DNA from: Opitutales bacterium
GTDB lineage: Bacteria > Verrucomicrobiota > Verrucomicrobiia > Opitutales > JABSRG01
Direction: 5' to 3'
Length of the DNA: 64,000 nucleotides
NCBI GenBank assembly: GCA_028280845.1
Contig: JANQKZ010000011.1
Location: 1 to 64,000, forward strand
Shown here one piece after another: positions 5 to 57,858 of this stretch. Position 1 is the stretch's first letter; every line of letters starts with the position of its first letter. The notes under the pieces were generated by a model. That model worked only from the letters and a program-made list of their open reading frames with translations, searched no databases and was not told the DNA's origin. Position numbers and translations under genes: made by a program.

Positions 5-95
5 TCCCGCATCCCGCATCCCGCATCCCGCATCCCGCATCCCGCATCCCGCATCCCGCATCCCGCATCCCGCATCCCGCATCCCGCATCCCGCA
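5..95. repeat. Tandem heptamer array (TCCCGCA)x13
   Basis: Thirteen perfect head-to-tail copies of the 7-mer TCCCGCA, ending 7 bases before the ATG of the Nudix gene. The array may continue left of the window. No spacers are present, so it is not a CRISPR. It is the cleanest of the period-7 arrays in this window and occupies the whole visible 5' leader of the downstream gene. There is no Shine-Dalgarno sequence between array and ATG. Confidence 0.97.
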
Positions 96-102
96 GAAAA
101 AC

Positions 103-603
103 ATGCCTCTCCCTTTTAAAATTACCACCCTCCTGTTTATTCAAAACACAGAGGATCAGCTCCTTCTGCTTCGCCGCACGAAAACCCCGAACTTCAACAA
201 ATGGAGCCCTCCCGGCGGAAAATTGGAAATGGCCGAAGGAGAGAGCCCATTCGAATGTGCCATTCGCGAGGCAGAAGAAGAAGCCGGAATCCAACTGAGT
301 CCGGACGACCTCCACCTCTGGGGAATGATTTCTGAGAAGAGTTTCGAGGGCTCTGGGCACTGGCTCATGTTCATGTTCAAAGTCACCCCAAGACTCAACA
401 CCCTCCCCCCCGGGATCGATGAGGGTAACTTTCAGTTTTTTTCCCGCCAGGATATCGAGCAACTCGAGGTCCCCGAGACTGACAAAATCCTCATCTGGCC
501 CTACTTTGATCAATACCACGACAAATTCATCACCTACCGCGTTGACCTCGCTGCGATGGCTAAGGGCGATCTCAATGTGATTGTCGACCAGGTCATTGGT
601 TAA
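103..603 (+). CDS. Nudix hydrolase (MutT-like)
   Basis: A 166-residue protein of the Nudix family, which cleaves nucleoside diphosphates linked to another moiety using Mg2+. The Nudix box spans about residues 39-63: GG at 38-39 and the REAEEEAG helix at 55-62. The box has two extra residues between the opening Gly and the first conserved Glu ([11 protein letters not shown]). Length and the N-terminal 'TTLLFIQN...LLLLRRTK' strand pattern fit 8-oxo-dGTP diphosphatase-like members, but the substrate cannot be read from sequence. The ATG follows the heptamer array directly, without a clear ribosome binding site. It is a stand-alone gene; the next gene starts 319 bases on. Confidence 0.9.
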
Positions 604-922
604 AAAAACAAAAAGAAAAGCGCTTATCCACGCTCCCGCAAAGCCGCAAAGTATAAAAGCGAAGTGAGGGCATTTTCATGCAGGTGACTGCCGCCGTTGT
701 GCACAAGCACTCGTCATATAGCCGAAGAGATTCCGTGGAATCCGAATCGGCCGTGCCGAAGACCGCTAATGCCTAATATACCCTTCCTCTAAATCGACAA
801 AACCTCAACATGAAGACAGACAAGTCTGTCTTGAATCGGACTGCCCTGAAAATAGGGATTGAACCCACCTGAATCATCCCCAATTCTTCCCCCTTCTCAA
901 CAGACCACAACCCATCCATCCC
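604..922. other. Intergenic region upstream of the PDH operon
   Basis: 319 bases with no convincing gene. It opens with an A-rich run, includes a 'CCGCAAAGCCGCAAAG' phrase typical of dispersed repeats, and contains the palindrome listed at 813-832. A 20-codon ATG reading frame at 810-872 spans the palindrome but has no supporting evidence. The promoter of the PDH operon is expected here; I could not identify a confident -35/-10 pair. Confidence 0.6.
813..832. promoter_or_regulatory. Near-perfect palindrome, candidate operator of the PDH operon
   Basis: AAGACAGACAAGTCTGTCTT has 9-base arms around a 2-base centre, about 90 bases before the E1 alpha start. The centre is too short for a good RNA hairpin, so a dimeric repressor site (TetR- or GntR-like symmetry) is more likely than a terminator. 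The regulator is not identified; this is inference from symmetry and position only. Confidence 0.4.
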
Positions 923-54713: not shown

Positions 54714-55042
54714 CCCTCAAATCATCTCTCCCGGCGACGCAGAGTCACGGAGATTTTTATTTCGTGAATACGCGCATTCCGCCTTTTTCGCTTCGTCCTC
54801 GAAATCTAAATCCCAATCGTGATCCCAATCGATACCAAGGCAGGTCGAGCCGTGAAGACTCTCTTACATGGAAATTCAGAAGGGCCGCATTGGATGCGAC
54901 CGGGGAAACAGATAAAGCTTTGAGTCTCATTACTCATCAATCAGGACAACGAATGGAGTCATCCAGGAGAGCCACAATCCCCGCTTCAAAAAGGGTTGCA
55001 GGCAGGGTAAAACCCCTAATACCCTATTAAACTTTTTCGGAT
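54714..55042. other. Intergenic region between folC and accD
   Basis: 329 bases, divergent promoters expected. It contains a 'GACGCAGAGTCACGGAGATTT' phrase (about 54736) and a 'CCCAATCGTGATCCCAATCG' phrase (about 54811), both repeat-like; the second recurs in variant form near 60.43 kb. A frame at 54764-55030 runs through these repeats and is not a credible gene. Confidence 0.6.
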
Positions 55043-55930
55043 ATGCCCTTATTCAAGAAGCCACAATACTCGACGGTTACGGTTAAAAAAAAGGATATCC
55101 CCAAGGGACTCTGGACCAAGTGCCCTAAAACCGGGGAAATCATATATAACAAAGAGCTCGAGCAGAATTTAATGGTGGTGCCCAAGAGCGGTTACCACTT
55201 CCCCCTCGATGGGCGCAGCCGCATCCACTCCCTTATTGATGAGGGCAGCTTCGAGGAGACCGATAGCGGCCTGACCTCTCTTGATCCCCTCGGCTTCAAG
55301 GGCTTAGCGCCCTATACCGCCAAGCTTGAGCAACACCAGAAACGCACCGGGGAAAAAGACACCGTGATTTGTGGTCTTGGCAAATTGAACGGTATGCCGG
55401 TCAGCCTGGCGGTAATGGACTTTAAGTTTCTCGGCGCCAGCATGGGATCCGTGGCCGGTGAAAAAATCACCCGCGCGATCGAACGTGCCGCCGAGGAAAA
55501 GATTCCCCTCATTATTGTCTCAGCGAGCGGAGGGGCTCGAATGTACGAGGGCATCCTCAGCCTGATGCAAATGGCTAAAACCAGTGCTGCCCTCGCCCGA
55601 CTGGCGGATCTGCGAATTCCTTATTTTTCAGTGCTGACTAACCCGACCATGGCCGGGGTCATGGCCAGTTTTGCCTCCCTCGGGGATGTGATTATTGCAG
55701 AACCTGGTGCGCTTATCGGATTTGCGGGAGCCCGGGTGATTAAAGAAACCACCCAACAGGACCTCCCTCAGGGGTTCCAAACCTCGGAATTCCTCCTCGA
55801 ACGCGGCCTCATCGACCAGATTGTTCACCGGCATGAGCTGAAGGTCAATTTAGCCGGGCTGATCGAAAAACTCTATCCCGCCGCCAAAGCCGAGGTAGAG
55901 GCATCGACCGAATCCGGATCGGTAGCCTAA
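55043..55930 (+). CDS. accD: Acetyl-CoA carboxylase carboxyltransferase, beta subunit
   Basis: A 295-residue subunit that, with AccA, transfers CO2 from carboxybiotin to acetyl-CoA. '[23 protein letters not shown]', '[25 protein letters not shown]' and '[35 protein letters not shown]' are diagnostic. The N-terminal zinc finger is degenerate: of the four ligand cysteines at 27, 30, 46 and 49, only Cys27 remains; the others are Thr30, Val46 and Ser49. The rest of the fold, including the spacing, is intact. accA is not in the window. Confidence 0.94.
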
Positions 55931-56073
55931 GCGGTAATAGAACCCTTGGCTTAATGGAGGGATGCTCGCGGAAGACCACGAGCCCTTTAATCGATGGCAA
56001 GGTGGAGGTCGAGGGCACCCGGGGTTCATACACAACCTCTACATGGACTCCCCTAGACCCTAGCCATTGGACA

Positions 56074-57858
56074 CTAAGCACTAAAATAAGTCTTCACCGC
56101 ATCCAGGGGACGACAATTTAGGATATGGTCCCGCGTGAGCCAACCTTTGCGGGCAATGTAAACCCCCGCTTCTGTATAATCGAATCCGTCCGTAGAATGG
56201 GCATCGGGATTGATCGCACAGAGGACGCCTTTTTCAGCTGCCCGTTTCCAATGCCGCCAGTCCATATCGAGGCGATAGGGATTGGCATTCAATTCAATCA
56301 CGGTGTTGTTGGCCGCAGCCGCATCGACAATCGCGTTTATATCCACGGCATAGGCCTCACGGCGCAGCAAAAGTCGCCCGGTGAGATGGCCCAGCATGGT
56401 GACCTGAGGATGTTCGATTGCTTTGATAATCCGTTTTGTCTGGTCCACCTCACTTAAGCTGAAGGAAGAATGTACACTAGCCACGACATAATCGAGAGCT
56501 TCCAGCAAGTCATTGTCAAAGTCCAGGGACCCATCGGCCAGGATATCCACCTCATTGCCCGCGAAGACATGGCAGGAAAACTGACCGGACGCATTTAGCT
56601 CACGAATCTGCTGTATCTGTTTTCTCAATCGATCCTCGTCCAACCCATTCGCTTGAAAACTGGCCTTGGAGTGATCGGCAATCCCCAGGTAGTCCCACCC
56701 GCGATCCTGCGCAGCTTGAACCATTTCCTCCAGCGAGTTCCGGCCATCGCTCGCCGTGGTGTGGTTGTGGAAGACCCCTTTCAGGTCCGACATGGTTAAA
56801 GGCTCCGGAAAGGCATCCCCTTCCTGTTCCCCAGCTTGAATCTCATCTAAACCCTCTCGGAACTCTGGAGGAATGAATTGCAAATCCAGGGCCTCGAAGA
56901 GGTCATGTTCAGTGCGAATAGAGGGCGGTGATGGTGCGCTGAGTTCGACGGCATCCGGTTCCTCCTTCCTACTCTCCGATTTCTGACTTCCGGCTTCTGC
57001 CTTTCGACTGAGCCCCCATTCGGACAGGGAAAGCCCTCGGGCCAATGCGCGTTGGCGCATGAGGACATTATGTTCCTTAGACCCGGTGAAATGGTGGAGC
57101 GCGAAGGCATATTGATCGGGCGGGACAACACGGAGATCGGCCTGGAGCCCTCCCTCAAGCCGGACACTGCTCTTGGTCTCTCCTTTGGCCGTAACCTCCA
57201 CGACCTCCTCCTGGTTCGTAAACCAGTCCATGATGGGCTCCGGTGAGTTTGACCCCACGATAAAGTCTAAATCACCCACAGTCTCTTTATACCGCCGGTA
57301 ACTCCCGGCGGCCTCCGCCTGATGGACTTCCTCCAGGCTCTTAAGTCCCCCCAGGATTGTTTCAACCACTTCCCGCACGGACCACCAATGATGCCGGGCA
57401 GCATAGGCCTCACGGTTCTGGATCCCACTTAAAACATTCTCCGCCGTCTTTTTGCCGAACCCCTTCAGTCCGGCAATTCTGCCATCCTCAGCCGCGCTCT
57501 TTAACCCTTCAATATCTTCGACACCAAGTTCGTCATAAAGCTTCTTAATCTTCTTCCCGCCCAACCCGGGAATATCCAACATCTCCAGTAAACCTGAAGG
57601 GACCGAGGCTTTCAATTTGGAGTAAAACTCGAGGTCACCCGTAGCATGAAGGGTTTCAATCTTGGTCACGAGGGCATCTCCCATTCCCTTAATATCACCA
57701 AGTCGTTTTTCCTCAATAAGGACATCGAGGTCATCTTCCAGGGTTTCAAGGATGCGGGCCCCATTCTGGTAAGCTCGAATTTTAAAGGGGTTCTCTCCCT
57801 TTAACTCGAGTAGGACCGCGATTTCTTCGAGTACATCCACAATATCCGCTTTGTTCAT
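56074..57858 (-). CDS. polX: Family X DNA polymerase with PHP domain (PolX)
   Basis: A 594-residue bacterial PolX. An N-terminal HhH-type 8-kDa domain (1-150; [26 protein letters not shown]) is followed by the polymerase domain with [17 protein letters not shown] (Asp196, Asp198) and Asp241. The C-terminal PHP phosphoesterase starts at about 360 with '[16 protein letters not shown]' and 'ADHS'. The linker between the two halves (about residues 286-303; [16 protein letters not shown]) is encoded by a period-7 array. PolX fills gaps in repair; the PHP part is expected to give 3'-5' exonuclease or phosphatase activity. Confidence 0.94.
56959..57007. repeat. Period-7 array inside polX
   Basis: On +: TTCCTCC, TTCCTAC, TCTCCGA, TTTCTGA, CTTCCGG, CTTCTGC, CTTTCGA, seven units of the 'TTCCGAC/TTCTGAC' class. 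It is in frame in the interdomain linker of PolX (minus strand). Confidence 0.85.

Follow-up and report, generated by a model that had tools for sequence, protein, structure and literature searches.

Heptamer arrays in the 64-kb window

The stretch analyzed here, called the window, comprises 64,000 nucleotides (nt) from contig 29 of the 62-contig, 4.79-Mb draft genome of an Opitutales bacterium. The nearest named relatives of its pdhB gene are Verrucomicrobiota, including one Opitutales assembly, and the first ten of them are 67 to 74% identical. The window contains arrays of seven-base units (heptamers), which were scored as local runs of matches at a lag of 7 (match, +1; mismatch, -1.2) and judged against 30 block shuffles and against other lags. 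Nine period-7 runs had a score of at least 10, compared with a mean of 0.2 and a maximum of 1 in the shuffles and with 0 to 3 runs at each of the other lags (5, 6, and 8 to 13). One of these nine (37541 to 37564) is a T/A-rich stretch. The chance level derived from the shuffles is 2.2 runs per window at a score of at least 8 and 0.5 runs at a score of at least 9.

All features below are on the forward strand unless stated otherwise. The strongest arrays are (i) 13 perfect copies of TCCCGCA at 5 to 95 (score, 84; opposite strand, (TGCGGGA)13), 7 nt upstream of the ATG of a NUDIX gene (103 to 603); (ii) a run at 7218 to 7291 made of two consecutive heptamer families, of the NNYTCAC type and then AGACACY (score, 23), 15 nt upstream of the ATG of a UDPGP-family gene (7307 to 8743); (iii) a GACACCA array at 8221 to 8254 (score, 20.4), located within the same gene, where it corresponds to an 8-residue insertion (within ETLDTRHQTPDTSPQ); and (iv) a run of the same unit, read as AGACACC, at 45222 to 45247 (score, 14.6) within a DUF4838-like gene (43701 to 45764). 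Tandem Repeats Finder independently called arrays at 5 to 95, 7258 to 7292, 8228 to 8254, and 45222 to 45242, together with a period-8/16 array at 8899 to 8935.

A sequence-only reading of this DNA had listed at least ten period-7 arrays and had placed five of them beside start codons, and this observation is partly confirmed. Apart from the four arrays above, those that it had seen near 44274 and 11281 also score above 10: the former is a GAATCCC-type run (44269 to 44307; score, 12.2) in the DUF4838-like gene, and the latter is a GGATCCC-type run (11281 to 11311; score, 10.8) within an open reading frame without Pfam hit (ORF; 11252 to 11782). Three others are weak, namely, a TTCCGAT-type run (10627 to 10656; score, 8.6), where the gene caller places no start; a degenerate YTTCCGA-type run (11202 to 11246; lag-7 score, 8.4; lag-14 score, 12.0) upstream of the same ORF; and a GGAAGTC-type run on the reverse strand (56959 to 57007; score, 9.4) that falls within the variable linker encoded by a PolX-like gene (56074 to 57858). 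The array proposed at 3246 is not above chance (score, 4.0), and the one at 8904 is real and has, as had been stated, a period of 8. It occupies 8899 to 8935 (TTGGGTAT; lag-8 score, 17.2) and ends 3 nt upstream of the ATG of an epimerase-like gene (8939 to 9937), a start beyond the five that had been named. Of those five, the starts at 103 and 7307 adjoin strong arrays. The start at 2139, of a pdhB-like gene, is preceded by a weak GACACC-type run (2077 to 2108; score, 9.6) that ends 30 nt away, the start at 11252 has a weak run only, and the array at the start at 3270 does not exceed chance. Five of the listed arrays (8227, 11281, 44274, 45224, and 56959) are inside called genes. Two further runs had been overlooked, a GCATCYC-type run (46510 to 46543; score, 16.0) within a glycosyltransferase-4-like gene (45751 to 46773) and a period-7/14 run on the reverse strand (50411 to 50441; score, 10.8) within a called gene (49024 to 50538).

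Period, placement, and strand polarity

A sample of 864 kb (18% of the genome), consisting of the window and 800 kb of other stretches, contained 691 called genes and 115.7 kb of intergenic DNA. The 800 kb are from long contigs known from a GACACC search, which may have raised array densities but leaves the lag and placement controls unaffected. Gene starts are uncertain since genes were called with our own codon-usage script in place of a standard caller. The scan for period 7 that the sequence-only reading had called for, made on this sample, showed 43 runs with a score of at least 10 at lag 7, 31 of them intergenic, as opposed to 2 to 5 runs (1 or 2 intergenic) at each of the lags 4, 5, 8, 10, and 11. 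At a score of at least 15 there were 17 runs at lag 7 and 0 or 1 at each of these other lags. Lags 14, 21, and 28, as multiples of 7, were also high. The arrays are thus heptameric simple sequence repeats, in which head-to-tail 7-bp units exceed other unit lengths and which are mostly noncoding (31 of 43 lie in gaps that total 115.7 of the 864 kb). Array units make up almost all of the most frequent 12-mers in the sample, and the unit families include GACACYA, GTCGGAN and its complement, TTTTCAA, AATTCAC, TTTAGGA, and TCCCGCA. The lag spectrum therefore bears out the claim of one period with varied sequence. No general hidden period of 7 was found in ordinary leaders once those with runs scoring at least 8 were set aside (lag 7, z 1.9; lag 6, z 4.3).

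Placement was assessed for the 30 arrays that lie in gaps between two called genes, using 2,000 random placements within the same gaps. The end of the array was within 15 nt of a start codon in 16 of 30 cases, compared with a mean of 6.8 and a maximum of 13 among the random placements, none of which reached 16. Within 40 nt, 19 arrays were found and 12.6 were expected (p 0.0005). The predicted closeness of arrays to starts thus holds against random placement. Near stop codons, the numbers for this genome were 7 observed and 4.7 expected within 15 nt (p 0.12). Arrays crowd stop codons in Hymenobacter (8 versus 2.5 expected; p 0.001) and in an Acidobacteriota sample (14 versus 6.1 expected; reached in 0 of 1,000 placements). 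Long G-rich arrays are located 3 to 7 nt downstream of stop codons, and 12 of the 43 arrays of the 864-kb sample are within called genes; both facts speak against the arrays being a start-codon device.

Strand polarity was determined for arrays lying no more than 40 nt from the closest gene end, pooled over 12 samples; four ties (two on the start side and two on the stop side), loci shorter than 5 kb, and loci classed as others (one stop-side array, with C>G) were omitted. On the coding strand before starts, C exceeded G in 39 arrays and G exceeded C in 8, whereas after stops the corresponding numbers were 12 and 43 (Fisher test, start versus stop, 7e-10). These p values overstate independence because several arrays come from one genome. 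Nonarray flanks had C>G:G>C ratios of 943:517 at starts and 738:582 at stops, and the arrays exceed this compositional bias on both sides (p 0.008 at starts; p 6e-7 at stops). The rule was visible in codirectional gaps (C>G:G>C of 30:5 on the start side and 10:29 on the stop side), in divergent gaps (9:3), in convergent gaps (2:14), and for arrays that share their gap with no other (32:4 and 9:25). In the window genome alone, the ratios were 14:3 before starts and 3:7 after stops, and the start bias is not clearly beyond background (323:152). Exceptions are the start side of the Acidobacteriota (2:4) and the single stop-side array of Capnocytophaga. As for Rho-linked operon polarity as the source of G-rich stop-side arrays, this possibility is weakened by the convergent gaps, which keep the rule (14:2 in favor of G>C).

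Arrays of like kind, built from other units, are present in Bacteroidota, in an Acidobacteriota genome, and in further Verrucomicrobiota, including named isolate genomes. In 66 non-Verrucomicrobial loci (1.14 Mb), 43 runs with a score of at least 12 were found at lag 7, compared with 1 to 7 at lags 4, 5, 8, 10, 11, and 13 and 16 to 31 at lags 6, 12, and 15; the latter excess is attributed to codon-phased repeats. In larger samples, there were 13 such lag-7 runs in 100 kb of Hymenobacter piscis, 7 in Polaribacter aquimarinus, 3 in Capnocytophaga sputigena, and 7 in 100 kb of a Verrucomicrobial genome (G042). An Acidobacteriota assembly (G041; L135 and L223 to L229) was extremely dense, with 37 runs in 130 kb, a density that may be raised as its contigs were chosen through a TTAGCTG search. 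No runs of this score were detected in Mariprofundus (60 kb) or in genome G034 (100 kb).

Orthologous sites and the origin of the arrays

The units of the window genome are private to it. Here, the GACACYA pattern gave 44 overlapping matches, which fall at approximately 26 places, whereas 51 other genomes from the order, one of them of the same family (G001), contained no GACACYA arrays, and the reversed pattern, used as a control, gave 0 matches. Orthologous leaders were read for three array-bearing genes (22, 11, and 24 leaders; one further orthologue, at a contig edge, has no leader). A lag-7 run with a score of at least 8 was present in 1 of these 57, that of a relative, G032 (1 of 11 for the gene concerned), with different letters. 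The absence from the other 56 is largely the outcome that the sequence-only reading had named as counting against it, and it argues against a conserved role. The insertion at 8221 to 8254 lies in a conserved stretch of the enzyme encoded by gene 7307 and is absent from all 23 aligned orthologues, the weak distant hits L266 to L268 being excluded. The PolX linker varies in length, and among 18 orthologues only that of G032 has a lag-7 run, again with other letters. Further genomes have arrays of their own at related places: in the relative L121, the leaders of both pdhB and pdhC carry different arrays (score, 14 each), and L129 has, by eye, a CCGATCA-like run upstream of pdhC. Such coincidences suggest, but do not prove, that arrays recur at permissive sites, since arrays favor gaps anyway. 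The flanks of different arrays have almost nothing in common; an all-against-all comparison of flanks with the arrays masked returned a few short matches, the longest of which (382 bases) is one stretch of DNA that flanks two arrays 20 nt apart, and the idea that the arrays have mobile flanks in common is rejected.

Within the arrays, five GTCGGAN arrays (72 units) differ from the commonest letter of the array concerned 6, 22, 3, 9, 0, 3, and 34 times in the seven columns, respectively. The letters seen in the two variable columns are A, G, and T, plus a single C. The unevenness persists when each distinct unit is counted once per array (p 1e-6), although unit differences are not independent events because units are copied among arrays. 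One array contains a repeated 28-base block, which, along with the excess at lags 14, 21, and 28, indicates block duplication. The arrays bear marks both of slippage or block duplication and of some constraint.

We consider, with a probability of about 0.5, that a recurrent process forms repeats in steps of 7 nt and that its products survive according to position and strand. The arrays are heptameric simple sequence repeats that would form repeatedly in some genomes, by slippage or by block duplication, with the same unit seeded at many places by some further route. Survival would depend on place, arrays being kept in gaps, within tolerant linkers of proteins, and adjacent to the start or stop of a gene. 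Upstream of starts, a C-rich and G-poor coding strand would keep the leader open in a genome without Shine-Dalgarno (SD) signals, and after stops the opposite strand would be favored. The unit letters may drift or be replaced in each lineage while the step stays constant. The data show the period, the placement at starts, the polarity, the private units, the insertion into a conserved enzyme, and the absence of arrays from most orthologous sites; we infer a single mutational process that makes the arrays and a filtering, without positive function, that sets their position and strand. The interpretation offered by the sequence-only reading is partly supported.

A number of observations weigh against this explanation. 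(i) Seven is not the only period. In the 864-kb sample, lag 6 (22 runs; 7 intergenic), lag 12 (21 runs; 8 intergenic), and lag 13 (7 runs; 5 intergenic) are above the floor, and in 100 kb of Chitinophaga vietnamensis (L208 to L212; G036 C5) there are, at a score of at least 12, 10 intergenic runs at lag 8 and 2 at lag 7. The latter result and the empty samples show that the phenomenon is patchy and that seven is not universal. (ii) The unevenness of the GTCGGAN columns suggests constraint, although common unit ancestry may account for it. (iii) Neutral slippage alone leaves the approximately 26 places of one private unit unexplained; a binding protein or a templated process at DNA ends would explain this spread. 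(iv) The strand flip between the two sides of genes is also unexplained by repeat formation, and a polarity on both sides is not predicted by a simple filter on translation initiation. (v) Near starts, single copies of TAGACAC and TTCCGAC tend to be in sense orientation (6:1 and 7:1; small numbers), which is the behavior expected of a binding site.

The arrays could instead be landing pads for translation initiation, a possible but rather unlikely alternative, in which a G-poor and open leader beside the ATG aids ribosome binding without SD sites. In 457 other leaders, SD-like 4-mers were about equally common at -18 to -4 (12.9%) and at -45 to -31 (12.5%), so this genome has no SD signal. Array-bearing leaders (n = 15) are less structured (-6.8 versus -11.9 kcal/mol; p 6e-4), 14 of 17 start-side arrays of the window genome have C>G, and the end of a gap array is no more than 15 nt from a start in 16 of 30 cases; a translational role has also been proposed for the TAACTGA repeats (MacGregor 2015, PMC4679880). 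However, the C>G bias does not clearly exceed background in the window genome and the structural effect survives shuffling (-5.8 kcal/mol), so that the weak folding reflects base composition rather than the repeat. Most orthologous genes have no array, and arrays also occur after stops and inside genes. Translation alone therefore covers the start side and leaves the stop-side and coding-linker arrays unaccounted for.

Somewhat less likely still are multivalent sites, at which a protein that binds RNA or DNA and covers about 7 nt, for instance, a cold-shock-type protein, would occupy one unit each. The fixed register, the presence of several copies, the genome-private units, the uneven conservation of columns, and the sense-leaning single copies are in line with this possibility, as is the binding of one Bacillus subtilis CspB per heptamer cited in MacGregor 2015 (PMC4679880). 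Against it stand at least four unit families in one genome and the arrays in coding linkers.

We consider improbable a DNA-level, telomere-like process that is directed to gene ends and adds repeats. Its features would be a G-rich strand running 5' to 3' away from the frame at both ends, steps of seven, and template-like private letters. It would operate at the termini of DNA fragments the size of a gene (e.g., in repair or uptake), with machinery common to several phyla and differing templates.

Intergenic hairpins or terminators formed by inverted heptamer arms are very unlikely as an explanation of the window genome, where none of 30 arrays has an inverted partner within 250 nt, as is the case for G042 (0 of 3) and Capnocytophaga (0 of 3); this rejects hairpins as the general cause. 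Inverted partners were found for 10 of 15 arrays in Hymenobacter, 2 of 3 in Chitinophaga, 10 of 30 in the Acidobacteriota, and 1 of 7 in Polaribacter, and hairpin pairing accounts for part of the Hymenobacter, Chitinophaga, and Acidobacteriota arrays. Yet the polarity persists for arrays alone in their gap. One Hymenobacter locus (L205; G035 C1, 36815 to 37020) has inverted heptamer arms around a long perfect hairpin that contains GTCATCCTGAGCGGAGCGAAGGATC.

Chance or an assembly artefact, to which the draft state of the genome and the weaker arrays at or near chance might point, is hardly credible and is contradicted for the strong arrays by the shuffle and lag controls and by the similar arrays in named isolate genomes.

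Published heptamer repeats and other elements of the genome

Heptamer repeats in bacteria are already known, as are their placement at start codons in one lineage (MacGregor 2015) and their polarity in two (Rehm 2015). The TAACTGA direct repeats of marine Beggiatoaceae, some Cyanobacteria, and Bacteroidetes, for which the S1, Csp, and Csr families were named as candidate binders (MacGregor 2015, PMC4679880), resemble the arrays of the window genome in being mostly intergenic heptamer direct repeats in forward orientation just 5' of start codons, with a few inside genes, few in close relatives, and other heptamers mixed in in some species. About half of the gap arrays of the window genome are of this type, i.e., a few nucleotides from a start and sense oriented. 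The TAACTGA systems have one dominant unit and seldom show related heptamers in repeated form, whereas the window genome has several unit families and no single favored unit. None of its listed arrays is TAACTGA, for which no separate search was made.

G-rich heptamers have been described in Xanthomonas (GGGAATC) and Nostoc (GGGGA(C/T)T), and these units, with their GGG tracts, form G-quadruplexes in vitro (Rehm 2015, PMC4692102). The polarity rule given there for both, with the G-rich strand noncoding upstream and coding downstream of genes, is that of our pool (39:8 and 12:43). A tract of at least three G per unit is regularly present here in the TCCCGCA array only (on the opposite strand), and quadruplexes cannot generally explain the polarity because GACACYA, GTCGGAN, and TTTTCAA have no GGG runs. 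The same paper cites a 2007 proposal that an excess of period 7 derives from the grip length of DNA polymerase, which would favor slippage by seven; the window genome has this excess in common. The PolX-like DNA polymerase gene of the window (thumb, HHH, and PHP domains) itself bears a heptamer run in its linker.

The likeness to cyanobacterial heptanucleotide repeats that the sequence-only reading had pointed out is supported by published descriptions. The cyanobacterial short tandemly repeated repetitive (STRR) sequences usually have 7-bp units, roles in transcript stability or coupling have been suggested for them, and their function is given as unknown (PMC2670836). They include hairpin-forming cases, in contrast to the window genome, which has no inverted counterpart for any of 30 arrays and which belongs to the Verrucomicrobiota and not to the Cyanobacteria. 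In searches of open-licence papers, we found no report of heptamer arrays in Verrucomicrobia, which does not establish their absence from print. The same searches did not turn up a multifamily case in the Verrucomicrobiota or, for units lacking G tracts, a polarity pooled over several phyla.

In the literature covered, heptamer repeats have hitherto been noted piecemeal, with one unit or lineage per paper. The comparison of a lineage having several private units with other phyla gives a pooled rule, consisting of a seven-base step, a location at gene edges, and a strand flip between the 5' and 3' sides. Two old questions thereby become testable, namely, the reason for a step of seven and whether repeat formation or the tolerance of mRNA ends gives rise to the rule. 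The data also advise caution, in that a heptamer array at a start codon need not be a regulatory site.

Other elements were seen in the same DNA. Positions from about 11000 to 46700 of the window form an island of atypical codon use, with few genes called by codon score, that encodes glycosyltransferases, a DegT aminotransferase, and LuxE-like and AMP-binding proteins and looks like a surface-polysaccharide region. A dispersed element of the CATTGCGA...GCAATCTC type is found at 5208 to 5260 and also at 2077 to 2090, 3195 to 3235, and 7150 to 7215. The copy at 5208 is inside a phosphoglucomutase-like gene (4957 to 6945), where it inserts 8 residues that the G031 orthologue does not have, and 20 hits of the motif are intergenic in the 864-kb sample. 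Although such elements adjoin several arrays of the window, heptamer arrays do not ride on these palindromic elements, 1 of 43 arrays being within 60 nt of one in this sample, compared with 0.9 expected. Finally, the palindrome GTGTATATACAC, with variants GTGTATTGACAC and ATACACAGTGTA, occurs 12 times in the 864 kb, both strands counted, for example, in a gene leader near position 47691 of contig C62 of this genome (G000), and looks like an operator.

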